A stretch of 36,672 bases of DNA, taken from a virus. Shown piece after piece: positions 7,471 through 34,819 of this stretch (position 1 is the stretch's first letter; each line of letters opens with the position of its first letter). The notes beneath the pieces are model-generated. The model saw nothing but the letters and a program-made list of their open reading frames with translations, had not been told where the DNA came from and ran no database searches. Both the position numbers and the translations under genes were made by a program. Where the stretch lies: positions 1 to 36,672 of the IMG/VR virus record IMGVR_UViG_3300036799_000281. One strand, 5' to 3'.

Positions 7471-8394
7471 TCAGTCCTCCAGGATCAGACAGGCGTAGAG
7501 CCCGTTGCCGAACAGGTCGATGACGCCGGGGTCGACGGGCGCCGAGCCGTGACCGATGGTTTCGGTCCCGCCTTCGCCGATGTAGTTCTCCCAGTGGTGG
7601 CCTTCGGTGTCGCCCTCCCACCGGAGGTAGATGACGATGCCCCAGCCCTTCTTGCGCATCGCCTCTTCGGAGACGATCTTCCAGCCGTTGTGCTGGCCGA
7701 GACCGGTGCCGGTGAATCCACCCGTGAAGTCGGTCCCGTTCGGGTCGGGCAGCTTCGAGGCCCAACACGCTTCGGTCCCGTAGAGGGAGCAGTCGGAGCG
7801 TTCGCCGGACAGCTGGCCGATGTGTTCCTGGCCGCCCTTCAGCAACGCGTGCTTGACGTTGAAGCCGGGCCCTTCCATCGAGTAGAAGTTCGGCCGGTCA
7901 CCGGAGGCGCATTTCGAGGCGATGTAGCGGTTGGCGAAGATGAACGCTTCGCCGTCGTTCTTGGCGCCGGCGACTCGCCCGTCTTTGCCGACATGGGGCG
8001 TCATTGCTTCGAGCTTCTTATGCAGCTGGTCAGAGCGGACTTCCAGCTTTTCGATCTGCTGCGTCTTCCGCTTCGCCCGCTGCTTGAAGACGATCGCCTT
8101 CGACTTCGCCTTGGCCGCTTTCGCGTCGAGGGTCAGCGCCTTCTCGTCCTTCCGCTTGGCCTTGGCGGTGAGGCTCTGCGCCTTCGCCTGATTCTCGTCG
8201 GGGCCGAAGGTGTTCAGGTGGTGAGCTTCCTTGCGGAGCCTGTCGGCCTCGGCGCGCGCTGCGGCCGCCTGACGTTCGGCCTTCTCCTGTTCTTTATGGC
8301 GCGCGGTCATCCGCCGCACCGCTTTGGCTCGTAGGGCGTGCTGGAGCTTCAGCGCGCGCGCCACCCCTTCAAGGGCAGCCTTGATCGTCGCCAT
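7471..8394 (-). CDS. Putative endolysin (Cys/His peptidase-like) with coiled-coil N-terminus
   Basis: A 307-residue protein; ATG at 8394 with AAAGGA 9 bp upstream. Residues ~1-150 are a highly charged Ala/Lys/Arg/Glu coiled coil. The C-terminal ~120 residues contain RSDCSLYGTEACWASKLPDP (Cys at residue 202), NGTDFTGGFTGTGLG and GHHWENYIG (His 266-267). The DCS...PDPNG...GGxTGT pattern followed by a downstream His resembles actinophage NlpC/P60- or amidase-type lysins that cut peptidoglycan stem or cross-link bonds. No secretion signal is visible, consistent with holin-dependent export. The long basic coiled coil is unusual and could be a cell-wall- or self-association region. Confidence 0.65.
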   Translation of the reverse strand: MATIKAALEGVARALKLQHALRAKAVRRMTARHKEQEKAERQAAAARAEADRLRKEAHHLNTFGPDENQAKAQSLTAKAKRKDEKALTLDAKAAKAKSKAIVFKQRAKRKTQQIEKLEVRSDQLHKKLEAMTPHVGKDGRVAGAKNDGEAFIFANRYIASKCASGDRPNFYSMEGPGFNVKHALLKGGQEHIGQLSGERSDCSLYGTEACWASKLPDPNGTDFTGGFTGTGLGQHNGWKIVSEEAMRKKGWGIVIYLRWEGDTEGHHWENYIGEGGTETIGHGSAPVDPGVIDLFGNGLYACLILED

Positions 8395-8438: not shown

Positions 8439-9122
8439 CTAGAACGTGCAGGTGCCGGTGAACGTCACGGGTTCGCCCGCTTCGTTCGTGCCGGTGAAGG
8501 TGCATTCGTAGGTGCCGCTGGGCGCCGGGCCCGGCTCACCCTGGGGACCGGGAGGGCCCGGGGCGCCTTCGGCCCCGGCAGCGCCGGTCGTGCCGGGAGA
8601 TCCTTCGGCGCCCTGGGCACCGGCGGCGCCTGCTTCTCCCGCGTCCCCGGTCGCGCCCTGTTCGCCCTTGTCGCCCTTCGGACCCTGGGCTCCGGATTCT
8701 CCGGTCGCGCCGATCGCCCCCGGTTCGCCGTCGGCCCCGGCCGGACCGGCGGCGCCTTCCTGGCCGGGAGGTCCACGTGGGCCGACCTTGCCGATCGCCC
8801 CGTTGGAGCCGGGCGCACCCGGTTCCCCGATGTGGCCTTCGGCGCCGGGGACGCCGGGCAGCCCCCGTTCGCCGCGCAGGTACCGGTTGACCCGTTCGAC
8901 CTGGCGCTTGGCGGCGCCGCCGGTGTGCTGGGCCTTGGCGGCGTGCGCGGTCGCCTTCGTCGCCTGCGCACCGGCGTGGTGCGCGGCTTCCTTGGCTTCA
9001 TCGACCTTGGTTTCGCGCTGATCGGTGTGGTTGCTGATCGCGATCCCGACCGCGGCCACCGCGGTGAGCCCGACGATGGCGATGATCGCGGCGATGATCG
9101 CGTAGCGCCTGGAGACCTTCAC
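8439..9122 (-). CDS. Membrane-anchored collagen-like protein
   Basis: A 227-residue protein from GTG at 9122, overlapping the upstream stop (GTGA). A basic N-terminus (KVSRR) precedes a membrane helix (residues ~8-30) and a helical charged stalk (31-83). Then come 39 uninterrupted Gly-X-Y triplets (residues 84-200, from GERGLPG to GPA) and a 27-residue C-terminal cap with two Cys (TYECTFTG...TFTGTCTF). Gly-X-Y repeats of this length form collagen triple helices. Phage collagens are usually in tail fibres; here the membrane anchor and the lysis-side location are unusual. The cap cysteines may lock a trimer. Confidence 0.75.
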   Translation of the reverse strand: MKVSRRYAIIAAIIAIVGLTAVAAVGIAISNHTDQRETKVDEAKEAAHHAGAQATKATAHAAKAQHTGGAAKRQVERVNRYLRGERGLPGVPGAEGHIGEPGAPGSNGAIGKVGPRGPPGQEGAAGPAGADGEPGAIGATGESGAQGPKGDKGEQGATGDAGEAGAAGAQGAEGSPGTTGAAGAEGAPGPPGPQGEPGPAPSGTYECTFTGTNEAGEPVTFTGTCTF

Positions 9123-9442
9123 GAGATCGCCCCCGTCGCCAGAAGGATGAACACGCCGACCATGAGGGGCGCGACGACCGCGGAGAAGATCACGGCGACG
9201 ACGAGGCGTTTGCCTTTGCCTTCGTCGCGATCGCGCTCGAGGTCGGCGACTCGGCCGTAGAGGCCCTGCACCCACTCCGCCGGCGCCTTGGCCGCGATCG
9301 CGTCGCCCAGCTTGTCGAGACGGGAGATCACCGCGGCGTGGTCGTCGGAGTTCTCCTTCTGCATCTCCGCCATCCGGCGGTCGAGGCCCTCCTGCCCCGC
9401 CTCGAGGCGGCCGAGGCGTTCGCCCAGCTCCTGTTGGTCCAA
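9119..9442 (-). CDS. Coiled-coil protein with C-terminal membrane segment (holin-like)
   Basis: A 107-residue protein from TTG at 9442, supported by a strong AGGAGG eight bases upstream. Residues 1-40 form a heptad-like coiled coil (LGERLGRLEAGQEGLDRRMA), followed by a linker and a basic patch (RDRDEGKGKR). A single hydrophobic helix (LVVAVIFSAVVAPLMVGVFI) ends the protein. Similar one-TM proteins with an N-terminal coil lie in lysis or tail-end positions of actinophages and are sometimes called holin-like. It overlaps and is coupled to the collagen-like gene. Confidence 0.6.
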   Translation of the reverse strand: MDQQELGERLGRLEAGQEGLDRRMAEMQKENSDDHAAVISRLDKLGDAIAAKAPAEWVQGLYGRVADLERDRDEGKGKRLVVAVIFSAVVAPLMVGVFILLATGAIS

Positions 9443-9458: not shown

Positions 9459-11978
9459 CTAGCTCTGGTTACGCGCTTCGCGGGCGAGCGCCTGGCGGGC
9501 GACGATCGCTTCCAACGTCTTCGGCGGCGCGTCGACCGTGATCGTCAGGGTCGACGTCGGCGGGTCCCAACTCGGCTTGGTGATAAGCCGCGGCGCGGCT
9601 TCGTCGGGGTGGTTCTTGATCCCGAGCGTCTGGGAGTTCCGCATCTTGTAGCCCTGCTGCAGATGGCCGGCGGCGTCGCGGATGTAGCCGCCGGCGACGG
9701 TGAAGGAACCCGGTCGCTTGGGGCGGTTGTATTCGCCGAGCTGGGCCGCTCCGAACTGCAGCGCTTCCTGTTCGGTGCAGGGCCACGGCACCGTCTTCGA
9801 GGTCCAGAGGTCCTCGCCATGACGGTTGGCCGGGTTATTTTCGTTCAGGTCGCGGAGCTCGACGTGTTCGCTCGGCCAGAGCGTCCAGCTGCGCCCGAAG
9901 AAGTCGGTGTAGTGGACGGTGATCCCGTTGGCGAAGTCTTCGGTGGTCTCACCCTGGAAGTTGACCGAGGTGCCGGGGTCCGTGGTGTCGATCCACCAGT
10001 CGAACTTGGTCAGGTCGGCCGGTTCCATGTGGAGCTTGCGGTCCTCGAAGACGTTGGTCTCCCAGAGGATCAGGTTGTTGAAGGTCTGCAGCGATTCGTA
10101 GCCGTCGCGTTCGACGTCGTGGCCGGTGAACTGCTGGATCGGGAAGGAGCTCCGCGGCGAGCCCGGCGCGAGCGAGATCTTCGGGAAGTAGGTCGCCAGC
10201 ATGTACTCGACGCAGTCGGTGAGCGGGTAGCCCTCTTCAGGCCATTCCCCGATCGGTTCGATGCCATGGGAGCCGACCACCCGGGGCGTCCGGTAGGAGT
10301 GGGCGTTGGTCAGGGTGCCGACGAAGGTGCCCGTGTAGAAGGACTGGGTCATCGCGAACTTGCGGCCCGAAGCCGACGCCTGGACCACTTGGTGGGCGGC
10401 GCTGGCGCCGTTGTAGTTGACCGGGAGGTCGACGGAGCTACCGATGTCGTCGCTGCAGAGGCCCGGCGACTCCGCCCAGGTCGTCGTGCCGTCGCCGACG
10501 AAGTCGAAGCGCAGTTGGCCGATGTCCTCGCCACCCGCGTAGAACCAGAGCTCAGTTCCGATCGGGAAGGCGGCAGGTTTGCCGACGCCGGCGAGGTTGA
10601 AGTAGAGGCCGGGCGCGACGGCACCCGCGAAGTAGGAGGCGCCAGAGGCCGAGCCGGCGACCATGTAGCCGGCTTCGAGCAGCTGGCCCAGTCGGCGCAT
10701 CGTCGGTTCTTCCCAGCCCGAGAAGCGGCGGTCGATGATCAGCATCGGCACCGCCCGACTCTTCAGGTAGCTCATCCAGCCGACCAGGTTCAGGGTGATC
10801 GACTGGCCGCCCGAGTTCTGCCGCGGCAGCCCGGCCACCCGCCCCTCATAGGCGACGAAGCCTTCCCGGCCGACCATCCTCCAGGTGTCCAGCAGGTTCA
10901 GGTCGGGCCACGCCCGGAAGATGTCCCGGAAGAGGGTGACGTTGCCGGTGGAGAAGCCTTCCCCCCGTTCGCTCGAGCAGCTGAGCCCGGTCGGTCGGTT
11001 GCGGGCGAGGCGCGCGTCGGCGGCGAGCCTGAAGACGTCGCCCTCGGCGGTTTCCGCCTCGACGTCGAGCTCGAGCGGCGGCTTGCGCTCGATGCGCCGT
11101 ACCGACGGCGGGGCCGGGGTCGAGAGCACCATTTCGGTCTGGGCGGAACCGGCCGCGGCGAGCGAGAGCTGTGGTTTCGTGGCCAGCACCAAACCGGTCG
11201 CCGCGGATCCGGCCGCCGGCGAGAGCGGGAGCGTCGCTTTGGTCACCGCGGTGAGCCCGAGGCTCGTCGCCGCGGATCCGGCCGCCGGGGAGAGCGGGAG
11301 GCGGGTCGGAGCGTGGAGGGCGAGCGACGTCGCGGCACCGCCTTTGGCCGCGGCGAGGGGGAGCGGTGGTCCTCCTACGGGAGGAACCGCGATCAGGATC
11401 GCCGCCCACGAGGTCGACGGCGTCCAGGTGAACGCCTTCGTCCCGGTCGATCCCGATGCCACGTTGTCGAGGGTCGCGGCGTGCTGGGCCAGGACTTCGC
11501 CTTCCCCGCTGTCGAGCCGCTCGGTCATCCCTTCCGGCGGGGTGGCCGCCGTCGCCGTCGTCTCGGCGGCGAGACAGATCAGGTCATAGCCCGCTTTCGC
11601 CAGTTCCAACGCTTTGGCCGTGGCCGTTTTGCCGGTCCCCGTTTCGGGCGCGGAGGCGAGGATCTGGGCGAGGGTCGAGGTGCGACCCGTGAAGCCGAAT
11701 GAGACGCCTGAGATTTCTTTCGTCCCGGCAAAGGTGAAGTCATAGACCGATGCCCCGGTATGGAGGACCGCGAACTGCTTGATCCGGTTTTCCCCCGCAA
11801 CCACGGTCGGACCTTTGATCACCACCGAGTTTTCAAAAGCCGCGGTGACATCCGCCACTTCCCAGAAGTTGAGATGGAAGATGATCGGGTCACCGATCGC
11901 CACGCCGGTCGGGGCCGGGACTTCTGCCACTTCTTTTCGAACAGCTTCTTTGAGAAGCCCGCGACCGGCGTAGGCCAT
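9459..11978 (-). CDS. Minor tail protein (839 aa) with internal AAGSAATS repeats
   Basis: A large protein following another minor tail gene. Residues 1-200 form a beta-rich collar-like region with TKAFTWTPSTSWAAILIAVP. Residues ~206-287 hold four imperfect ~21-residue repeats (LPLSPAAGSAATSLGL type). Residues ~290-839 are a beta-rich baseplate-like part with many Trp/Tyr motifs (FRAWPDLNLLDTWRMVGREG, SWTLWPSEHVEL). Size, position after the tape measure and composition suggest a distal tail or baseplate component that contacts the host. The repeats may be a flexible linker. No enzymatic motif was accepted; a GTGKT string is not in a P-loop context. Confidence 0.7.
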   Translation of the reverse strand: MAYAGRGLLKEAVRKEVAEVPAPTGVAIGDPIIFHLNFWEVADVTAAFENSVVIKGPTVVAGENRIKQFAVLHTGASVYDFTFAGTKEISGVSFGFTGRTSTLAQILASAPETGTGKTATAKALELAKAGYDLICLAAETTATAATPPEGMTERLDSGEGEVLAQHAATLDNVASGSTGTKAFTWTPSTSWAAILIAVPPVGGPPLPLAAAKGGAATSLALHAPTRLPLSPAAGSAATSLGLTAVTKATLPLSPAAGSAATGLVLATKPQLSLAAAGSAQTEMVLSTPAPPSVRRIERKPPLELDVEAETAEGDVFRLAADARLARNRPTGLSCSSERGEGFSTGNVTLFRDIFRAWPDLNLLDTWRMVGREGFVAYEGRVAGLPRQNSGGQSITLNLVGWMSYLKSRAVPMLIIDRRFSGWEEPTMRRLGQLLEAGYMVAGSASGASYFAGAVAPGLYFNLAGVGKPAAFPIGTELWFYAGGEDIGQLRFDFVGDGTTTWAESPGLCSDDIGSSVDLPVNYNGASAAHQVVQASASGRKFAMTQSFYTGTFVGTLTNAHSYRTPRVVGSHGIEPIGEWPEEGYPLTDCVEYMLATYFPKISLAPGSPRSSFPIQQFTGHDVERDGYESLQTFNNLILWETNVFEDRKLHMEPADLTKFDWWIDTTDPGTSVNFQGETTEDFANGITVHYTDFFGRSWTLWPSEHVELRDLNENNPANRHGEDLWTSKTVPWPCTEQEALQFGAAQLGEYNRPKRPGSFTVAGGYIRDAAGHLQQGYKMRNSQTLGIKNHPDEAAPRLITKPSWDPPTSTLTITVDAPPKTLEAIVARQALAREARNQS

Positions 11979-13098: not shown

Positions 13099-15195
13099 TC
13101 AGCGCGGGAGGAGGAAGCGCTCGGTGACGAGCATTTCGGCGGCGTGTTTGTCGGTGACGACGGTGTCTTCCTCGACGTCGTTGTCGTTGCGGCGCAGACG
13201 GACCGCCAACCGGTTGATCAGGCCCAGTTCGCCTTCGGGCTCGAGGTAGAGGCCACCGCCGCGGTACATCGACGGAGGCCCGTCGTAGGTGCCGGTCGAG
13301 TCCTGCCGCTCACAGCCGCGCTGATCGAACTGGGCCTTGCGGCCCGAGAAGCAGACGCGACCAGGCTCGTCGGCGCCCAGAAGTTCGAAGGGAGCGAGGA
13401 GGCGTCTACCGGCGGTCGCGGAGGTATAGACGTCGTATAGGCCCGCCCTGCCTGAGGCGAGGGCGCCGCCCGAGGCCAGATCCGCGGACTGGCCTCTGAT
13501 CTCCTTGACGTCGCTGGGCGCCGCCGCCCGCCAATTCCCATTGGCGGCGACCGAGAGTTCGAGCGAGTGGTCCTGGGGAAGGGTGTACCCCGTCGGTTCT
13601 TCCCCGACGGCGCGGAACGTGACGATAGGAACGGAGTCGAGCGGCGTGGCGACGCCGGCGACGACCTTGACCACTTCGAGAAGGACGGAGGCTTCCCAGA
13701 ATTTGGATTCGAACAATTCGCCTACCAGGCTGGCCTGCAGGGAGAGGACGCCGACGAGGTAGTTGGTCGTGCCGACGTAGCGCCCGAGCAGGCCGATCCG
13801 GGAAGCTCCCTTTCGGAGTGCGGTCCCGGCCTTCACGATCGTGGAGCTCTGGAAGGTCGCGTAGGAGGTCGCGCCTAGAAGGGCGAAGCAGCCGGCGGTG
13901 AGGCTCACATCGGAGACGGCGGTCCGTTCGAGGTAATGCCCGGCGTTCACCTTGAAACCGTTGGCTCCCGTTTTCCCGGCCTCCGCCCAGGTGATCGCGG
14001 TCGGATATTTCGGTTCCTTGCCTTCGAGGTTGCCTTCCGCCTGTTCGAAGGGGTCGAGGCAAAGGAGGCTCGTCGGGGTGTTTTCGGCGATCCCCCGTGC
14101 TCGCGCGGCTCCCTTGGTGGTCGGCTGGAAGATCAGGTAGTTCCCGGCGTTGGCCGGGTTGCCTTCCGTCGAGCGCTGTTCGAAACGGATCTCCGAGGTC
14201 TGTGCGCCCAGCTCGACCTGGTCGAGGAAGACTTCGCCCATGTAGAGCTCCGACCAGCCGCCCACGACGACCGGCTGCTTCCATTCGAGCGTCTGCAGCG
14301 GGCCGTCGCCGTTGCGATAGGAGATCCGGAAGAGCGCAGCTTCGGAGACCGCCTTCACCCGGGCATAGATCGCGAAGGAACCGACGTGGGAGATGCGCCC
14401 CGTCCCGAACATCGCCGTCGGCTGGGACACCGCGATCGCGACGATCGCTTTTTCGGAGCCGAAGGCGCCGGCGACGGTTTCGAGTTTGCCCCCGAAGCCG
14501 GTGGTGACCAGGTCGGTCGAGGCCTTGAGGAGGAGGGCCGGATTGGCTTCGCTGGTGACGACGTCACGGCCCCACGCCGCGAAGCGGCGGTCCTGGGTGG
14601 CTTTGTCGGTGACGATCAGCTCCGCTTCGGCGGGGACGTCGCCGAGCACGCCCGGGATGTAGAGGACCTGCAGCGGTTCGGCGGCCGATTCGGTCAAGGC
14701 CTTGATCACCCGTCGCGGCCGCGTCCAGAACGAGGCACAGGTCAGTTTGATCTTGAAGACGGGCGCGTCGATCAGCCAGCCCGCCGTGTCGCCGGTCGCG
14801 GTGACCGGCACTTCGGTGATATCGCCGGTCTTCACGTAGCCCGTGTAGGGCCTTTCGGTGTTGTGGACGGTCCAGATGATCGGCTGGCCGCCGAAGACCT
14901 TCTCGCAGGCCTGGACGGCGTCGTTGAGCTCGCCCGCTTTTGCCAGGGTGGCTTCGGTGACCGCCTGCTTCGTCGCCCCCGCCTGCGGCGTCACCCTGAT
15001 CATCCATTCGAGGTAGGCCGGGGTGTAATGACTTTCGCCCGCCAGCTCTTCGCCGTCGGCGTCGGGGTTGGAGACCAGCACCGGCTTCTTCTGGGCGGGC
15101 GTGAAGTTGAAGTTTTCGACGAAGAAGTCCGTGTCGGGCCCGTCGTTGACCAGGAGGCCGCCCAACTGCCAGAGCTCGGACGTCGAGACCGTCAT
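13099..15195 (-). CDS. Minor tail protein, distal-tail-like (698 aa)
   Basis: ATG start; its stop is followed by a 32-bp gap, and its start overlaps the tape measure stop (ATGA). The N-terminal ~200 residues (WLIDAPVFKIKLTCASFWTR, EWMIRVTPQ, TGYVKTGDI) fit a distal-tail (Dit)-like fold that joins the tail tube to the tip. The middle and C-terminal parts are beta-rich with repeated FRISY/IYARV-type strands, possibly carbohydrate-binding modules. Being the first gene after the tape measure is the standard Dit position in siphoviruses. There is no sequence-level proof of the subfamily. Confidence 0.7.
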   Translation of the reverse strand: MTVSTSELWQLGGLLVNDGPDTDFFVENFNFTPAQKKPVLVSNPDADGEELAGESHYTPAYLEWMIRVTPQAGATKQAVTEATLAKAGELNDAVQACEKVFGGQPIIWTVHNTERPYTGYVKTGDITEVPVTATGDTAGWLIDAPVFKIKLTCASFWTRPRRVIKALTESAAEPLQVLYIPGVLGDVPAEAELIVTDKATQDRRFAAWGRDVVTSEANPALLLKASTDLVTTGFGGKLETVAGAFGSEKAIVAIAVSQPTAMFGTGRISHVGSFAIYARVKAVSEAALFRISYRNGDGPLQTLEWKQPVVVGGWSELYMGEVFLDQVELGAQTSEIRFEQRSTEGNPANAGNYLIFQPTTKGAARARGIAENTPTSLLCLDPFEQAEGNLEGKEPKYPTAITWAEAGKTGANGFKVNAGHYLERTAVSDVSLTAGCFALLGATSYATFQSSTIVKAGTALRKGASRIGLLGRYVGTTNYLVGVLSLQASLVGELFESKFWEASVLLEVVKVVAGVATPLDSVPIVTFRAVGEEPTGYTLPQDHSLELSVAANGNWRAAAPSDVKEIRGQSADLASGGALASGRAGLYDVYTSATAGRRLLAPFELLGADEPGRVCFSGRKAQFDQRGCERQDSTGTYDGPPSMYRGGGLYLEPEGELGLINRLAVRLRRNDNDVEEDTVVTDKHAAEMLVTERFLLPR

Positions 15196-18100
15196 ACCGT
15201 TCCCAACTGGCCATCGCCAGGCGTCAGTTCCTGGTGCGCGATCTTCGGGCCGAGGGTGCCACCGAGGATTTCGGCGAGAGCCTGCCAGGCCACCGCGCTG
15301 TTGGTGCCGATCGCCGAGGTGGCGAGTGCAGTCTGTTCGCCCATCTTCTGGGTGAGTTCCTTGATCGCTTCGGTGTGGGCTTCCATCGCCGCCTTCTCTT
15401 CTTCTTCGCGGGTCGCCTGTTCTTCGGCCGCCTTTTCGATCGCTTCGGTCTGCGCTTCGATCGCTTCCTGCTCGGGGCTCGGGCCTTCTTCCCCTGACCC
15501 CGCTTCGCGGAAGGAGCTCAGCTCTTCGTTGGCGCCGTGGAGGCCTTCGAGGAGGTGTTCACGCTGGGCGAGCAGCTTCTTGCGCTGGCCCGGGCTGTTT
15601 TCGTGTTGCAGTTCCCGGTTGACCTTGGCGAGCTGCTTCTGGATCCTCGTCTTGTTGGCCTTCTCGAGTTCCATCCCGTAGGCGCTCGCGCCGACCGGGT
15701 TCTCACCGTGTTCTTCGCCATAGGTGACGGCTTCTTCGGCGATCTCCACTTTCTGGGCGAAGCTGAGGCCGGGCTGCTGGAGCGCCTTCTTGAACTTCGG
15801 CGGCATCCAGGAGGCGGAGGCGGTGACCTTGCCCGGCTTGAGCGCGCCGACGCCGACTGGGGTGCCGTGAGGGGAGATCCGGGTGGTTGCGCCGGTGCTT
15901 TCGGATTCTCCGATCGCCGGTTTCACCGTGCTGGTGTGGCCCTTGGATCCCGCGCCGGTCGCGACCGCCCCGGCAGAGCCCCTGATCACCGCGGTGCCGG
16001 TCGCGTCGGTGGGGAAGTCGGAGGTCGAGAAGCCAAGCTTCTTCACCCCGCCTTCGGTGACGTCGATCGCCCGCTGGGTGAACCCGGCGGGCCCGAGGTC
16101 GATGATCGGCAGATCTGCCGAATGTCCGTCGATCGAGACGTCGGCGTAAACCGGGTGGCCCGCACGGGACTCTTCCATCCACTTCTGGGTGGTGGGGTTG
16201 TCCCAACCCGATTCGGTGCCGGGGTTCAGGTTCATGGCGATGCCGGGTTGAGAAGTGTTGCCGCCGCCGGCCGTGGCGCCACCGTTGAACCAGCTGACCT
16301 TCCCCGAGACATTGCCGCCGCCGGCAAAGCGAGGGAGTCGGCCCCCGCGGGCCCGGAACTGCCCATGCTCGATCCAAGGCCAGCCCTTTTCGGCCTTCAC
16401 CCGCTGGACCCAGGGGTAATACGTCGCGGATTTCGGCAGGGGCGGGTTCTGGTACTTGATCCCAGCCCTCGAGTAGATCTGCGGTGCCGCCCAAAGGGCG
16501 AACGCTTCGGCGCCACCCTCCCGGAGCGGAGGGTTGCCGGCGAGGTTGTTGCGCTGGAAGTAGTGGGCCCACTCGTGGATCAGGGTCTCCTTCACCACAT
16601 TCGGTTTCTTGCCGATCCAGCCCTCGAACCACTTCGGATAGCCGAGGTAGTTTTTGGCCAGCTTCCCGTTCTTGCCGAAGACCTTGTTGTCGCCGACGAA
16701 CGCCCCTCCCCACGCCGTCGTGTCGAAGTTGGCCGGCGGCATCGATGAGGGTGAGCCGCCGTAGAAGGGAGCAGCGGACGGCCAGACCGATTGCATGAGG
16801 TCCTGGACGGCCTGACCCTGCTTCGAGAGGTGGAGGGCCTTACCGGTGCCGATGCGGCCGCCTCGAGCCTTGAACTGACCGTGCTCTATCCAGTTCTGGC
16901 CCAGCTGGTCGGCCACCCGTTCCCCGAAGCCCTTGTAGCCGCCGCCCGGCCAGGGCATCCCGGCCGGGTCGATCCCGAAGACACCTGGGCCGGCCCAGCG
17001 AGCGAAGTCCGTGGCGCCGCCCTCCCGTTGCCAGTGGGATAGGCCGGGCTTCTGAAAGACGTGGGCCCACTCGTGGAGAAGCGACTCCTCGCCGTAGCGA
17101 TTGCCGGCCATCGCCCGCCCCATCCAGCCCTTGTCGAAGAAGACCGCCTTGTGGCCGGGCGCGCCTTCCACCTTCCCGACGTCGCCTTCAGTGCCGGTGA
17201 GGCCGCGGGCAAGGTAGTCGCCGGCCGGGTAGGCACTCCTCGGCGACTGCCCATAGAGGCCTGCAGCGTGGCCCCAGGCCCTCGCCAGGAACTTGTCGAC
17301 CGCGGGCGTCGAGCCTTCGATGACCGCGCCGCCTCGAGCGTGCCCCGTCCCCGACATGTGGCCGTCGTCGACAAAGCCGATCGGCAGCAGAAGCTTGGGG
17401 CCCTTGTAGCCGACGGTCGCGGCCATGAAGGCGGCTCGGTTGGCGAGCGCGGCCGCTTCGTGCATCCCCCCGAAGTCGACTGCACCACCGGGGTAGGAGG
17501 TCTTCGTGTGTTCGTCATCCGGGAAGCCGAGTTCAGCCGAGTGCTGGGGCGTGCGGTAACCCGAGGTAATTCGACCGTCCCAGCCATGGGCGACCGCGTA
17601 TTCGAGCTCGGGGATGATCCACTTGTCCACCGGGTAGCCGTCGAAGGAGCCGACCCCCGACGGGACCTTGCCGCTGTAGGTTGCCGCGGTGCCGGTCGAG
17701 GGTTTCGGTTCGTGCGCTTCGAAGTACCTGTTCACCGCGGCCGCGGCGTGCGAAAGAGCGCCGTGGCCGACAGCGCCGACGAGGCCCGGGCCCGCGACCT
17801 TGACCTCGCCTCCCTTCGCGGCGTAGTGGGGGCGGTCGAAGGCCCCGAAGAAGCCGTCCATGCCGGCGACGCCGAAGGTGTTGGCGACGGCGTAGTCGAG
17901 GGGACCGCGCTGGTGGCGGTTCACCACCATCAGGTCCTCGCCCGGAGCGACCATCGCCGACATCACACCGTTCACCTGGAGGCCGACCGTGTCGTTGAGG
18001 CCCTGTCCGCCGACCCGGGCGAGACCGCCGCCGGCGTAGTTGTGGTGTTTGGCATCCCCGGCGACGCGCGAGCCGCCGCCTTCGCTGTTGAGCTGGGTCC

Positions 18101-20987
18101 CGCCCATCCTCGAGGGGCCGAAGACGATCGCCTCGAATTCGACCATGTCGTGCAGGCCGAGCGCTTTCAACATCGCGTTGGTGTTGGTGCCGATGTTGTC
18201 GAGCGCGCCGCCGACGCCGGTCGCAGCTTCGTAGAAGGCTTCGGCGACCGGACCCGTCGCGCCCTTTTTCACCCCTTCGCGCAGCTGCTTGTTGGTGGCG
18301 CCGAAGTGGCTGATCTCGAACTTGGTGAGGGATTCGATCTGCCGTTCGATCTTCGGGTGGCCGTCGGCCCAGGCCTGGAGCATCTTGTTGGTCGAGTCGA
18401 TCGAGGAGGTGCGCGCCGCCTTCGGCATCTGTTCGAGCTCGGCTTCCCACTTCTTGACTCCGCTCGAGGTGATGCCTCCGGCCTTCTTGAAGGAGTCGGA
18501 GGTGGCCTTGGCGAGCCCGAACGGGTCATCGCCCTTGATTAGGTGGATTTCGCCTAGGAGCTTGTCGATCTGCTTCTGCCCGGTCTTCGCCTTGATAGTG
18601 CCGTCATCCATGCCTTCTTCGATCGAGGCGACTGCGCCTTCCATGGCCTCGGCGGTGTGCGTGCGCCAGCCGGAAGTGCCCTGTCCCCACGCCGTGTCGG
18701 CCTCGGAGAGACCCGCCACCAGGTCCCTGTCGATCGCGCCCATCCCGAGGGCGACGTCGCCTTTCATCTGGCCCAGCACCTGACTGAAGTTGGCGCGAGC
18801 GTTCTTGATCGCCGCGATCTGCCGATTGACGGCCGCCAGTTCGTCGGAGTAAGCCTTTATGACCGCTTTCGGCTGTTCCGAGTATTCGGCCGACTGGCGC
18901 TTATCGCGCAGTTCCGCCCTGACGCCCCGAAGGCCGGTAGCGCCTTCCCGGTAGGTCGTCCCGTATTCGGTCCCGGGAACGTCGCCGGCGCCCTGGCGCT
19001 GCCCTTCGCGGCCGAGGGCGCCGTGGTCGACCAGCTTCTGCAGGCGCCCGCTTTCGCGCTCCTTCCTGAAGCCGTTGAGGAAACTACGGGCCTCCTTGGC
19101 GCCCGCCTGTTCGAGCTCCGCGCCTTCGTCCCCGACCGAGTCGAGCATGATGCCTGCAATCCCGCCGACAGCCGCCCCGATGCCGGTTCCGATGCCGGGC
19201 GCGATCGCGCTGCCGATCGCCGCGCCGACGCCGGCACCCTGGATAGCGTCACCGACCTTGGTGGCCAGGTCACTGTCGCCGACTTCCTTGACCACCTGGC
19301 CGACGACCAGGCCACCGACCCCGTAGGTCAGGAGGCCCTTGCCGAGGCTGCCGGCGATCGAACGGGCCGAGGAGAGCGTCGCGGAACGGGCCGCGGAGGA
19401 CGACGAGCCGAGGCCGAGGCTGAGGGCGTCTCGCGTAGCGTCGCCCTCCGAGATCCCGGCGCTGGCGACGCCGATGTCCCTCGAGCTCAACTCTCCGGCA
19501 CGCTGGAGCGACGCCTGCTCCGCTCGCCTCTCGGTACCCAGCCATCCAACCGGTAGAGCCGCCGACTCCGCCGAGGCGGCCGCCGTCGTCGCGGTGCGGC
19601 CCGCAGGAATCACGCCGCCCATCGCCAGGTTCGAGGCCTCCTCCGCGCCCGTCATCCCCTCGAAGGCCTTGGTCGCCCTGCCGACGAGCGTGATGATGCC
19701 GCCGACCCCCTTCGTGACCGGGCCCAACGCCGCGGCGGCGAGGCCGAGGACGACGATCCAGTGCTTCGCGCCGGCCGGCAGCTGGTCGAACTCGTGGGCG
19801 ATGTCACCTACGTCGTGTGAGACTTCCTTCAGGATCGGCAGCAGCACCGGGGTCAGTTCATTGCCGAGTTCGACCAGGTCGGCCTGCAGCTGCGCCCACT
19901 CCTCCTGCCACTGATTGGCTTCGCTTTCGCGGGCCGTCTTCAGGTTCTTGTCGGTGCGCCCCTCGATCGTTTCCAACCGTTCATAGGTGGCTTCGAGGTC
20001 CTTGAGGTTCTGCAGCTGGGCGAGGATCCCGCGGGAGGTGCGGCCGCCGCCGAAGAGTTCCTCGATGGCCTGCGTCTGGGCGAATTTCGGCAGCCCTTCC
20101 AGGTGTTCTTTGAGGTCCTGGAGCGCGTGCAGCCAGCCCCGTGGGCCTTCCTCGGCTTTTTCGCCGAGCTCGTCGAGGCCCAGGCCGAGTCGCTTGGTCG
20201 CGTCTTTCGCCTTTTCGGTGTAGGGGACGAGCTGCTGGAAGTTCATGGCCAGCCCGTAGGCGGCTTTCTGGGCCGGCACACCGCGGGCCGTCATGAAGGC
20301 GATCGCCGCGCCGACGTCGGTCAGTTCGAGGCCTGCCGCTTTCGCCGCCGGGACCACCCCGGTCGAGAGGGACGCGGTGAGTTCCCCCATCTGCGTGTCC
20401 CCGGCACCCATGGTGCCGTTGAGGATCCCGATCGTTTCGTGCAGGTCTTCGGTGCCCTTGATCCCGGTCTTCATCGCCGAGACGACGGCGTAGGTCGTTT
20501 CGGCGAGACCCGACTGCCCCAGCATCGCCAGGTCGGCGGACTGCTTGAGGGCGTCGATCGCCTTTTTCCCGTGGTAGCCGTCGGAGGCGATGTGGTACAT
20601 CGCTTCGCCCAGTTCGTTTGGGCCCTGGGTGTATTTCCCCGACTGCGACATCTCGAGGATCGCCTTCTTGTACTCGTCGACCTGGGCTTTGGTGCTCTCG
20701 GTGTGGGTTTCCACCAACAGCATCGTTTTGTCGAAGTCGAGGCCCATCTTCACCGCGGCCGCACCGACGCCGACCAGTGGCAGCGAGACGTACTTGCTGA
20801 GGCTGCCCCCGACCGTCGACATCCCCTTGCCGAACTTCTCGATCTTGGTGCCCGTCGACTCGACTGATCGACCGGCGGCATCAACCTGACGAGAGGCGGC
20901 CGCGGCCGCGGTGCCGGTTCCGGCGAAGGCTTTCCGCGCCGAGGCGTTGTCGCCGATGATCGAGATGACCAGCGTGCGCTCTGGCAT
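15192..20987 (-). CDS. Tape measure protein with M15-like and two HEXXH metallopeptidase-like domains
   Basis: A 1931-residue protein, the longest in the window. Residues ~60-400 are the TP901-type tape measure core (MGLDFDKTMLLVETHTESTK, IASDGYHGKKAIDALKQSAD). Hydrophobic stretches follow near 405-430 and 575-620 (IGSAIAPGIGTGIGAAVGGI). Residues ~1112-1222 are M15 peptidase-like: SGYRT (1142-1146), DDEHTKT, GGAVDFGG and DDGHMSGTGH. Two tandem repeats then each carry HEWAH-x-FQ (H1305 and H1471), a downstream REGGA with a possible Glu ligand (E1322, E1490), and a closing WIEHGQF-ARGGR. The C-terminus is coiled coil. It sets tail length and probably opens peptidoglycan during entry. The start has an upstream GGAGGGG; the stop overlaps the Dit-like gene. 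Confidence 0.85.
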   Translation of the reverse strand: MPERTLVISIIGDNASARKAFAGTGTAAAAASRQVDAAGRSVESTGTKIEKFGKGMSTVGGSLSKYVSLPLVGVGAAAVKMGLDFDKTMLLVETHTESTKAQVDEYKKAILEMSQSGKYTQGPNELGEAMYHIASDGYHGKKAIDALKQSADLAMLGQSGLAETTYAVVSAMKTGIKGTEDLHETIGILNGTMGAGDTQMGELTASLSTGVVPAAKAAGLELTDVGAAIAFMTARGVPAQKAAYGLAMNFQQLVPYTEKAKDATKRLGLGLDELGEKAEEGPRGWLHALQDLKEHLEGLPKFAQTQAIEELFGGGRTSRGILAQLQNLKDLEATYERLETIEGRTDKNLKTARESEANQWQEEWAQLQADLVELGNELTPVLLPILKEVSHDVGDIAHEFDQLPAGAKHWIVVLGLAAAALGPVTKGVGGIITLVGRATKAFEGMTGAEEASNLAMGGVIPAGRTATTAAASAESAALPVGWLGTERRAEQASLQRAGELSSRDIGVASAGISEGDATRDALSLGLGSSSSAARSATLSSARSIAGSLGKGLLTYGVGGLVVGQVVKEVGDSDLATKVGDAIQGAGVGAAIGSAIAPGIGTGIGAAVGGIAGIMLDSVGDEGAELEQAGAKEARSFLNGFRKERESGRLQKLVDHGALGREGQRQGAGDVPGTEYGTTYREGATGLRGVRAELRDKRQSAEYSEQPKAVIKAYSDELAAVNRQIAAIKNARANFSQVLGQMKGDVALGMGAIDRDLVAGLSEADTAWGQGTSGWRTHTAEAMEGAVASIEEGMDDGTIKAKTGQKQIDKLLGEIHLIKGDDPFGLAKATSDSFKKAGGITSSGVKKWEAELEQMPKAARTSSIDSTNKMLQAWADGHPKIERQIESLTKFEISHFGATNKQLREGVKKGATGPVAEAFYEAATGVGGALDNIGTNTNAMLKALGLHDMVEFEAIVFGPSRMGGTQLNSEGGGSRVAGDAKHHNYAGGGLARVGGQGLNDTVGLQVNGVMSAMVAPGEDLMVVNRHQRGPLDYAVANTFGVAGMDGFFGAFDRPHYAAKGGEVKVAGPGLVGAVGHGALSHAAAAVNRYFEAHEPKPSTGTAATYSGKVPSGVGSFDGYPVDKWIIPELEYAVAHGWDGRITSGYRTPQHSAELGFPDDEHTKTSYPGGAVDFGGMHEAAALANRAAFMAATVGYKGPKLLLPIGFVDDGHMSGTGHARGGAVIEGSTPAVDKFLARAWGHAAGLYGQSPRSAYPAGDYLARGLTGTEGDVGKVEGAPGHKAVFFDKGWMGRAMAGNRYGEESLLHEWAHVFQKPGLSHWQREGGATDFARWAGPGVFGIDPAGMPWPGGGYKGFGERVADQLGQNWIEHGQFKARGGRIGTGKALHLSKQGQAVQDLMQSVWPSAAPFYGGSPSSMPPANFDTTAWGGAFVGDNKVFGKNGKLAKNYLGYPKWFEGWIGKKPNVVKETLIHEWAHYFQRNNLAGNPPLREGGAEAFALWAAPQIYSRAGIKYQNPPLPKSATYYPWVQRVKAEKGWPWIEHGQFRARGGRLPRFAGGGNVSGKVSWFNGGATAGGGNTSQPGIAMNLNPGTESGWDNPTTQKWMEESRAGHPVYADVSIDGHSADLPIIDLGPAGFTQRAIDVTEGGVKKLGFSTSDFPTDATGTAVIRGSAGAVATGAGSKGHTSTVKPAIGESESTGATTRISPHGTPVGVGALKPGKVTASASWMPPKFKKALQQPGLSFAQKVEIAEEAVTYGEEHGENPVGASAYGMELEKANKTRIQKQLAKVNRELQHENSPGQRKKLLAQREHLLEGLHGANEELSSFREAGSGEEGPSPEQEAIEAQTEAIEKAAEEQATREEEEKAAMEAHTEAIKELTQKMGEQTALATSAIGTNSAVAWQALAEILGGTLGPKIAHQELTPGDGQLGTV
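16107..16120. repeat. Dispersed palindrome CGGCAGATCTGCCG, copy 4
   Basis: Perfect 14-bp copy inside the tape measure gene, read as SADLP in the stretch DGHSADLPIIDL. Confidence 0.85.
16326..17310 (-). repeat. Tandem duplication of HEWAH metallopeptidase-like domain within tape measure gene
   Basis: Two protein-level copies of ~150-165 residues (about 1226-1380 and 1390-1555). They share A-x-x-YG-SP-S, HEWAH-x-FQ, REGGA-x-x-FA-WA-P, and WIEHGQF-ARGGR in the same order. HEWAH starts are 166 codons apart (17075 and 16577). The copies have diverged in sequence, so the duplication is not recent. Confidence 0.8.
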
Positions 20988-32132: not shown

Positions 32133-32789
32133 TTAAGCCGCATGCTCGGACGGAACCTTCTCGCCGAGGCGTTTGGCCTTTGCTTCCGCCGCCTCGACGC
32201 CTTGGCGGATGCGGGCGAACTGACGGCTGAGATCGGCGCGTGGATCGTCTTCGAGGCGACGCAGCCGCTCTGACAAGGGCAACTCCTCGATCGCCAGACG
32301 CTGTGCGCCCATCTCGAGCAGGTGACGCTGATGAGCATCGCGGCTGCCGCGGTAGTGCTTGATCTCGTGCGGCGGCACGGCCTCGGGCTCGAGCGGCTCG
32401 CCGGCGTTCTTGTGGGCGGCGCTGCGTTCGTCCTCTTCGATCGCGTCAATCGTCAACGCCGAGCCGTGGAAGACGTCTTCACTCAGACCGAGCGCCTGAC
32501 TCGGGTCATCGGTGTAGCTGGCGCCGGTGCCGCGGCTGAGCAACGTCGGGCGGTCGACCCGCTTCTCGGTGCGGCTGAACAGCGCCAACCACACTCGCGT
32601 GCCGCTGACACGGGATCGCTCGGTGCGGGTGATCTCGATCGAGCAGGTGCGCATGTCGAAGACGTCGCCGCGGTTGACGGGGCAACGCTGCTCGCGACCG
32701 TCGACCATCAACGGCCAGATGAGCGTCATCAGCTCGCGGTCGTTGATGGCCTGCCGTTTACCGGCCAGTGGGTCGCGCAACGGGTTCAA
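32133..32789 (-). CDS. Conserved phage protein of unknown function (218 aa)
   Basis: The start is TTG at 32789 in a TTGA overlap with the ParB-like gene; upstream in-frame codons belong to that gene's other frame. The core PVNRGDVFDMRTCSIEITRT, VWLALFSRTEKRVDRPTLLS, ASYTDDPSQALGLSEDVFHG resembles proteins of unknown function that recur in phages of several groups. A charged helical C-terminus (SRQFARIRQGVEAAEAKAKR) follows. Coupling to ParB suggests a shared role. No catalytic motif was identified. Confidence 0.6.
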   Translation of the reverse strand: MNPLRDPLAGKRQAINDRELMTLIWPLMVDGREQRCPVNRGDVFDMRTCSIEITRTERSRVSGTRVWLALFSRTEKRVDRPTLLSRGTGASYTDDPSQALGLSEDVFHGSALTIDAIEEDERSAAHKNAGEPLEPEAVPPHEIKHYRGSRDAHQRHLLEMGAQRLAIEELPLSERLRRLEDDPRADLSRQFARIRQGVEAAEAKAKRLGEKVPSEHAA

Positions 32790-34651
32790 GCGGCGGCTGG
32801 CTCCGCGACGGCGGTGTAGGCGTGGCCGTTCTTCGAGACCTTGCCTTCCTTCTCGAGGTCGCCGAGGATCCGGTACAGCCGATTGGGCCTGACGCCGAGA
32901 GCCTTGGCGAGTTTGTGGGCCTCGGTTCCGGCGTTGGCGAGCACCACGGCAAGCACCTTCTCGGCGTCGGTTTCCGCGGCGCCGGCGGCGTCGATCAGTC
33001 GCGCATGCTCGGCCGCTTGCTCCCCGAGTTCGGCCGCCTGTTTCTCTCGCTCCCTTCGGCGCTCGACGGTCGCCTTCGCCATCGCATCGGGAAGGATCCC
33101 GAAACGGTCGGCGATGTCGTCGAGCATGTCGAGCACGTTGAGGTCTGGCCGCACCTCCGGCCCGATGACCTGGGGGCCGAGCTGTGGCCCAGGGATCGCC
33201 ATCCACCGCTGACCGCCAGCGGTTTCCAAGGCATGGCGGCGCGCGATGGCCGCGCGCAGGACGACCCGAAGGCATTCAGGCGCGTTCTTTGCTTCCCGCA
33301 GCTCCTGCCGAAGGGCATCGTCCGCCCATCGTTCCTCGGGTGCGTCGAGCGGCGCGTCCTCCTCGGCTTCTTCGACATCGCCATAGCGCTTTGGGTCAAG
33401 CGCTCCCAGGCCGCCCTTCACGAACTCGATCGCCAGGTCCTCGTCGCCCAAGGCCATCGCACAGACAAGCCGGACAACATCGACATCGGTCGCCTTCGGG
33501 TTTGGCATCGCGTCGAGGGCCTGCAGCAGGTCGCCGTTGGCCTTGGCCGCCATCTCCTGCTCCCGTTTGCGCTTGCGCTCTTCTTTTTCGACCTGCTTCT
33601 GGCGATCGGCGTCGGGCTGACCGACCACCTCGGTCGCGACGCCGCGGCGCTCGGCGTACTTCGCTCGTTCCTGCTCGATCGCCTTCTGCATCGCCGGCAC
33701 CTTCGCCTTGGCGAGCTCGAACACGAGATCACCGTCAGTGATGTAGGCATCCTTCGTCTTCGCACCCCATGACGTCGTGTAGGAGAGCTCCAGCAGCGCG
33801 CCACCTGCCTTTGCGGCCTTCCCGTCAGCCGTCGTGAACCGAAAGCCGGGCTTCTGCATGTGGGGCGGCGACGGAAGGTCGCGATGCAGCTGCTTGATCT
33901 CCTTGAGCTGCTCGGCGGTCGCCACCGGAAGCGATCCCGCGGCCGACGAGCCGTAGTGGTTGTCGACGATCTGAAGACCGTGTTTGGCTGCGACCTGGCC
34001 GAGCGCGTCGGCCACGGAAGCCATGTCGCCGAACATGTCGAGCCGAATCCCGTGAAGCGCCTTCCCGTCCCTAACGAGTCCGACGAGCGCCACGACCGCC
34101 TCCGGGCGCACCGTGGCGATCGCGGCGAGGTGGGGGATCGCCTCGAGCGGGATCTCGCCCGACTCGATCATCGGCACGATGGGATCGGGGACGTCGAGGA
34201 GTTTCTGCCGATTGCGCGCCGACCGCTCCGACATCGACATCGCCTCGGCGGCCTCGGCCTGTTTCATGCCGAAGTCCTCCCGGAGCGTCTGCAGCGCCCG
34301 GGCCTCGGCCATCGGCGTCATGTCGGCGCGAGCGCGATTCTCGGTGATGGCCGCCAGGAAGCGCCCCTTCTCGTCGAGGTCCTCGTCGACCAACGCAGGG
34401 ACGGCCTCGAGTCCGATCGCCTCTGCCGCGGCGAAGCGGGTGAAGCCGAAGATCACGGGGTGGATCCCGGTCGCATCGGCCGCGGCGACCTTGATCGGCG
34501 TTTCGATCCCACGCGCCTCGATCGAAGCCTTCAACTTGGCGAAATCGTCGCTCCCAAGGTCGATCTCCCCACGCGGATTGGTGCCCGGGATCGCCACGAT
34601 GTCCTTCGTGGGGATCATCCGGAAGGTCTTCTCTGCGACTGCAGTGCTCAT
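32786..34651 (-). CDS. ParB-like protein (ParB/Srx domain plus HTH, 621 aa)
   Basis: The start chosen is ATG at 34651, with AGGAGG upstream; the frame is open further to 34819. The ParB N-terminal domain is at residues ~10-105 (RMIPTKDIVAIPGTNPRG, KLKASIEARGIETPIKVA, HPVIFGFTRFAAAEAIGL) and a KorB/ParB helix-turn-helix at ~125-155 (DFGMKQAEAAEAMSMSERSA, RNRQKLLDVPDP). The GERR CTP-binding box is degenerate (GFTRF). A long C-terminal half contains a helical lysine/glutamate stretch and a winged-helix-like end (AHKLAKALGVRPNRLYRILG). No ParA is nearby, so it may act as regulator or DNA organiser instead of partitioning. Confidence 0.8.
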   Translation of the reverse strand: MSTAVAEKTFRMIPTKDIVAIPGTNPRGEIDLGSDDFAKLKASIEARGIETPIKVAAADATGIHPVIFGFTRFAAAEAIGLEAVPALVDEDLDEKGRFLAAITENRARADMTPMAEARALQTLREDFGMKQAEAAEAMSMSERSARNRQKLLDVPDPIVPMIESGEIPLEAIPHLAAIATVRPEAVVALVGLVRDGKALHGIRLDMFGDMASVADALGQVAAKHGLQIVDNHYGSSAAGSLPVATAEQLKEIKQLHRDLPSPPHMQKPGFRFTTADGKAAKAGGALLELSYTTSWGAKTKDAYITDGDLVFELAKAKVPAMQKAIEQERAKYAERRGVATEVVGQPDADRQKQVEKEERKRKREQEMAAKANGDLLQALDAMPNPKATDVDVVRLVCAMALGDEDLAIEFVKGGLGALDPKRYGDVEEAEEDAPLDAPEERWADDALRQELREAKNAPECLRVVLRAAIARRHALETAGGQRWMAIPGPQLGPQVIGPEVRPDLNVLDMLDDIADRFGILPDAMAKATVERRREREKQAAELGEQAAEHARLIDAAGAAETDAEKVLAVVLANAGTEAHKLAKALGVRPNRLYRILGDLEKEGKVSKNGHAYTAVAEPAAA

Positions 34652-34819
34652 CACTACCTCCTGCTCACCGGAAGGACTGCCGGTTTTGGTCGTTTGCGAA
34701 ACAGGGAGCCGTAAAGCCCCCCCCCAGAGGATTTGGGTGCTGCCGCAATCCGGGCAGACGTCGATCTCCTCGGCCCTCCAGGAAGCCGGGCAGACCTGAC
34801 ACGAGGCGAGCCGTGGCAC
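34652..34819 (-). CDS. Zinc-ribbon N-terminal extension or separate small ORF upstream of ParB
   Basis: GTG at 34819 overlaps the upstream stop (TAGTG), as expected for a real start in this operon. Residues 5-30 hold a zinc ribbon (SCQVCPASWRAEEIDVCPDC). The frame continues without a stop into the ParB-like gene through a run of nine G (34717-34725). One base more or less in that run would end the small protein before the ParB start. So this is either an alternative long ParB form or a separate gene with a length error in the tract. Confidence 0.5.

Follow-up and report, generated by a model that had tools for sequence, protein, structure and literature searches.

In the phage tape measure protein (TMP) analysed here, the C-terminal half carries four modules, in the order M15-like, HEXXH unit 1, HEXXH unit 2 and RlpA/DPBB-like. 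We consider it probable (roughly 0.6) that this protein is a virion-borne multi-cutter for crossing the cell wall at DNA entry, equipped with a predicted, new gluzincin-like peptidase domain. The TMP is encoded in an IMG/VR virus record of 36,672 bases (the window), which also encodes terminase, portal, head protease, capsid and minor tail genes and therefore belongs to a long-tailed phage. The phage is uncultivated, and its relatives point to an actinobacterial host. Our verdict is that the protein is an unusual member of a known protein kind, and that its HEXXH units belong to a family without a model in any library searched.

A tape measure protein with four C-terminal modules

The identity of the TMP was given by Pfam, where PhageMin_Tail matched above the cut-off (E 6e-24), and by PHROGs, where many tape-measure families matched (best E 7e-56). 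Within the TMPs compared, module borders often close with a short glycine-rich linker (RGGR, KGGL, RRGG), and in the window ARGG occurs at residues 1217, 1374 and 1546; such linkers may be exchange points. The features and their coordinates are listed in Table 1. Downstream of the TMP gene, two long ORFs on the same strand, 9459-11978 without a Pfam match and 13099-15195 without a PHROG match, possibly encode tail-tip proteins. The window also contains an ORF with collagen-like repeats (8439-9275, minus; Pfam Collagen E 3e-18), possibly part of a tail fibre, and an ORF of 677 aa (32786-34819, minus) whose N-terminal part is ParB-like and whose C-terminus has a weak WhiB-like match.

Table 1. 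Features of the tape measure protein and their positions in the window
Feature	TMP residues	Position	Strand	Basis or remark
Tape measure protein, 1931 aa	1-1931	15192..20987	minus	Uninterrupted ORF, Pfam and PHROG; bears all modules
PhageMin_Tail domain, TMP backbone	108-313	20049..20666	minus	Pfam
M15-like module	about 1112-1218	17334..17654	minus	Motifs, relatives, model
Candidate active-site residues of M15-like module	R1145, H1160, D1171, D1207, H1210			Invariance
HEXXH unit 1, L001-like type	about 1226-1378	16854..17312	minus	Motifs, alignment, tree
HEWAH of unit 1	1305-1309	17061..17075	minus	Motif
EGGA of unit 1	1322-1325	17013..17024	minus	E1322 is the candidate third zinc ligand
HEXXH unit 2, L005-like type	about 1385-1550	16338..16835	minus	Alignment, identity, AlphaFold2 model
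HEWAH of unit 2	1471-1475	16563..16577	minus	On predicted helix 82-97 of the unit
EGGA of unit 2	1490-1493	16509..16520	minus	On predicted helix 106-127 of the unit
RlpA/DPBB-like module	about 1557-1678	15954..16319	minus	Identity to L001 and L017 modules; overlooked by the initial annotation, beyond its left edge at 16326

The TMPs of T5 and TM4 are known to carry peptidoglycan-cleaving domains, and some siphophages eject the TMP into the envelope (PMC6116005). As here, the lytic domain of the T5, TM4 and phiIPLA35 proteins lies inside the TMP (PMC6116005); however, each of them has one such domain, whereas the window TMP has four modules, two of which belong to a family without a model. In enterococcal TMPs, a transglycosylase was the only such domain observed (PMC10194240). 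Virion proteins with two lytic domains have been described; they were termed rare in 2017, with five cases (PMC5380687). Multi-domain likeness is greatest to CwlP (YomI) of prophage SP-beta, a very large tail protein with lysozyme-type and endopeptidase domains (PMC5380687), but CwlP combines an SLT-type with an M23 domain (PMC10653849), in contrast to the M15-like, paired HEXXH and DPBB-like modules found here, whose order is shuffled in relatives. The initial annotation had called an M15-like module next to paired HEXXH units an unfamiliar layout. This layout was indeed not found described, and an HEXXH unit in a TMP was not found in the open-access literature, in which joint mentions of 'tape measure' and HEXXH concern injection systems; the coexistence of two different lytic domains in one virion-associated lysin, in contrast, is known, for example from CwlP.

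The M15-like module

The proposed M15-like signature was borne out by its motifs, SGYRT at residue 1142, GAVDF at 1168 and DDGHMSG at 1207, and by its relatives. A pattern scan recovered six relatives in long phage ORFs, two further ones came from bacterial chromosomes, and in all nine sequences the residues R, H, D, D and H were invariant, with the acid placed three residues before the last His. The H/D/H ligand pattern, this acid and the Arg within SGYR are those of peptidase M15 (VanY, Peptidase_M15_3, T5 endolysin), which shares the SGYR and H...D...(D)xxH pattern, although the module places 10 residues, four more than the usual 6, between its first His and Asp, and falls below all curated cut-offs. 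The window copy had no Pfam match and did not reach the M15 cut-off; its relatives matched M15_3 (E 0.07-0.14) and VanY (E 0.0065), and the counterpart in the TMP of contig L004 matched the Hedgehog profile HH_signal (E 0.002), all below cut-off. A weak structural model (pLDDT 65) had as its sole Foldseek match in the PDB the M15 endolysin of phage T5 (E 1.9), with a VIA Z of 2.4. Taken together, the weak M15_3, VanY and Hedgehog matches and the lone endolysin match point to M15. One of the chromosomal relatives is a short protein, secreted by appearance, and the other lies behind PG_binding_1 (E 3.7e-9) in a lysin-like frame. The chromosomal frame at L056 1504-3354 (minus), with PG_binding_1 and the M15-like module, has one in-frame TGA according to the search and looks like a lysin or a prophage remnant.

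Two diverged, homologous HEXXH units

All motifs previously ascribed to the two HEWAH units, namely EGGA, WIEHGQF (residues 1366 in unit 1 and 1538 in unit 2) and ARGG, were located. The TMP contains two HExxH motifs, compared to 0.078 per copy after shuffling of the protein. Over 163 aligned columns the two units are 37% identical (E 5e-23), and 39% in the comparison of all copies, so that the homology implied by the earlier term 'duplicated' stood. A recent duplication in place did not. A tree built from seven copies joined unit 1 in one clade with the copy of L001, an IMG/VR contig (support 100/99), and put unit 2 closest by distance to that of L005, an Actinomycetota MAG (JAFDWB010000094.1), in a part of the tree where the branching had no firm support. 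Identities agreed, with 60% between unit 1 and L001 and about 73-74% between unit 2 and L005. Because each unit resembles its counterpart, in L001 for unit 1 and in L005 for unit 2, more than it resembles the other unit, the tandem is not the product of a recent in-place duplication, and these comparisons therefore suggest that either two diverged cassettes were joined or an old duplication took place. Substitution rates were dN 0.20 and dS 0.88 for unit 2 versus L005, and dN 0.37 and dS 1.25 for unit 1 versus L001, with dN/dS of about 0.2-0.4 in close cassette pairs. Since dN is well below dS in these pairs, the modules are maintained.

The family was searched for in viral contigs, 84,980 species genomes and phage records. 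An HEXXH unit was found in four TMPs, those of the window, of the IMG/VR contigs L001 and L004, and of L005. Further copies were an incomplete frame (L012) and a free ORF of 190 aa on two near-identical phage contigs (L013, L014). A true copy was present only in the L005 genome among 399 genomes of its class and 396 of its phylum; therefore the family is rare and, on present observation, carried by phages. Bacterial HEXXH proteins from the class search (L008-L011) were rejected as relatives, their similarity being confined to 37 residues around HEXXH...EG. A tblastn search of 50,697 phage records recovered nothing related to the module region of the window, and its relatives gave chance matches only; a match to the BirdsNest TMP lay on the opposite strand of that gene and was thus discarded. 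The free protein is encoded at 7668-8240 (plus) of L014 and at 562-981 of L013, where the contigs are nearly identical. On L014 its gene lies 0.8 kb from an SLT/transglycosylase-like ORF, which immediately precedes the large terminase, and the portal of the phage contig with the free protein is of a different type. On L012, the incomplete frame (2-703, with HEWEH) is followed by a gene (703-2433) with a weak NlpC/P60 match.

Alignment of seven sequences, one of them a fragment, revealed 16 invariant positions, including HExxH, the next Q and EGGAxxFA, and the combination of HExxHxxQ with EGGAxxFA was constant across all copies found. The copies share the invariant, predicted catalytic Glu and three candidate zinc ligands down to about 30% identity. 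Binding modules need not keep such residues, which argues against the idea that the HEXXH units bind zinc without being catalytic and serve as wall-binding or spacer modules, for avidity or tail length. That idea has in its favour the tandem pair, which is typical of binding repeats, and the general rule that tail length, which the TMP sets, scales with TMP length; even so, we regard it as quite improbable.

Predicted fold and candidate zinc site of the HEXXH unit

Searched separately, the HEXXH units gave no above-cut-off match in Pfam, PHROGs or NCBIfam, and no known peptidase family among these sequence models matched them; a sequence search of the PDB likewise gave no match. The AlphaFold2 model of unit 2, computed from the seven-row family alignment, reached a pLDDT of 77.8 and a pTM of 0.76. 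In this model, the HEWAH helix adjoins the EGGA helix. Thus, of the structure prediction and peptidase family search that the initial annotation had proposed, the first placed both motifs on adjacent helices and the second returned no family. A conserved HEXXH helix with a downstream Glu on the next helix is the layout of gluzincins (clan MA), as in Peptidase_MA_2, DPP III, M2 and M3, and we infer the zinc site of the unit from its invariant residues and this arrangement of helices. The unit differs from gluzincins in having no detectable sequence relation to them and a length of only about 160 aa; hhalign against Peptidase_MA_2 (PF13485), with a small, rough alignment of 10 members, gave about 0% and left the motif unaligned.

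VIA structural comparison of the unit 2 model returned gluzincins in 24 of 26 rows, from three families, although the rows were redundant and mostly ACE/ACE2. Z scores were 4.9 for DPP III, 3.1 for neurolysin and 2.2-3.4 for ACE/ACE2. Because all Z scores were below 5, which is middling by the tool's own scale, the model fits a gluzincin core and falls short of proving it. Foldseek found no PDB match to the model below E 1, which does not establish a new fold, and a search of a viral structure library gave no useful match. We regard the HEXXH unit as a probable new gluzincin-like peptidase domain.

A link to DUF4157 (eCIS_core) had also been suggested, on the strength of the HExxHxxQ motif common to both, and would make the HEXXH units diverged members of that family, tying phage TMPs to the cargo of contractile injection systems. 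The Pfam eCIS_core match extended over 24 residues (E 0.23) and, with 12.1 bits versus a cut-off of 22 (PF13699), was not significant. Profile-profile comparison with hhalign gave a probability of 8%, and the compared eCIS_core copies had no EGGA box at the same distance. With the short motif alone being shared, we dismiss this link as highly improbable.

The RlpA/DPBB-like module

We read residues 1557-1678 as an RlpA/DPBB-like module; when the window copy itself is tested, this assignment is less certain than those of the other three. The module is 67% identical to that of the L001 TMP and 68% to that of the L017 TMP, whereas the backbones of these TMPs are only 33% (L001) and 26% (L017) identical to that of the window. 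Invariant residues were found among the aligned modules. Against DPBB_1, which Pfam describes as lytic transglycolase, the L004 counterpart gave E 2.9e-4 (21.5 bits versus a cut-off of 28.8) and the L001 copy E 0.13, also below the cut-off. In other phage contigs (L019, L020, L021), a DPBB-like module stands at the C-terminus of small ORFs, after a shared W/R-rich stretch.

Evidence for exchange of modules among tape measure proteins

The HEXXH unit adjoins wall-hydrolase-type modules in all four TMPs that contain it, and their order changes. It lies between DPBB and CHAP/NlpC in L001, between M15/Hedgehog-like and DPBB_1 modules in L004, and before NLPC_P60 (E 2.5e-7, above cut-off) in L005, where a possible lysozyme-like stretch, without a profile match, comes first. 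Related modules occur in TMPs that have no HEXXH unit: DPBB after an NlpC-like stretch, recognised by eye, in L017; DPBB and M15-like in L022 and L026; M15-like and Phage_lysozyme2 in L024 and L025 (E 7e-19 and 4e-18); and Phage_lysozyme2 followed by M15-like in L023. Between L004 and L024, a backbone stretch is 60% identical and the cassettes differ. The recurrence of the same modules in other orders, together with the different cassettes on the L004 and L024 backbone, is therefore strong evidence that modules have been swapped among TMPs. Mosaic TMPs are known in general (PMC10684548).

This company also bears on what the HEXXH units may cut. Most gluzincins cleave proteins or oligopeptides, and the enzymes that the model weakly resembles in structure (DPP III, neurolysin, ACE) are peptidases as well, as would be expected if the units were zinc proteases acting on protein, either clipping the TMP itself for maturation or tube release, or attacking a host surface protein such as an S-layer or wall protein. 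The wall-hydrolase-type surroundings in every TMP concerned, the free copy near a transglycosylase-like gene and the absence of the unit from similar-backbone TMPs (L024, L017) speak against a protein substrate, which we consider unlikely. To our knowledge, the established peptidoglycan peptidases are M15, M23, NlpC/P60 and CHAP enzymes and not HEXXH gluzincins; for this reason peptidoglycan as the HEXXH substrate is a guess drawn from the company of the modules, to which protein cleavage is the main rival. A tentative proposal, to which we give slightly less than even odds, is that the unit is the founding member of a new peptidoglycan endopeptidase family of the gluzincin class, carried by phages, swapped as a cassette among TMPs and also used as a free lysin.

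Proposed role at DNA entry

In the preferred reading, that of a virion-borne multi-cutter, the C-terminal half of the TMP would be a string of wall-degrading modules on short glycine-rich linkers. The M15-like module would act as a zinc L,D/D,D-peptidase and both HEXXH units as short gluzincin-like zinc peptidases, in which H91, H95 and E110 (unit 2 numbering) may hold the zinc and E92 may serve as general base; their target would most likely be the peptide part of peptidoglycan. The RlpA/DPBB-like module may act on glycan or bind it. After adsorption, the TMP would exit the tail tube into the envelope, where its modules would open the peptidoglycan locally and let the DNA pass; having a series of cutters may be of help where walls are thick or vary. 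The data show the ORF, the homologies, the invariant residues, the steady association with modules of wall-hydrolase type and their shuffled order, and from these we infer that the units bind zinc and are catalytic, what they act on and that the TMP is released as the DNA enters.

In the reviews consulted, TMPs with lytic domains mostly bear a single one and never more than two (PMC5380687), and here there are four modules. A TMP with four modules, and relatives in which they are shuffled, indicates that the C-terminal half of TMPs is a platform for the exchange of wall-cutting cassettes, like endolysins. Should peptidoglycan prove to be the substrate of the HEXXH unit, environmental Actinomycetota phages, of which there are few isolates, would contribute a metallopeptidase class beyond those of the usual phage lysins.
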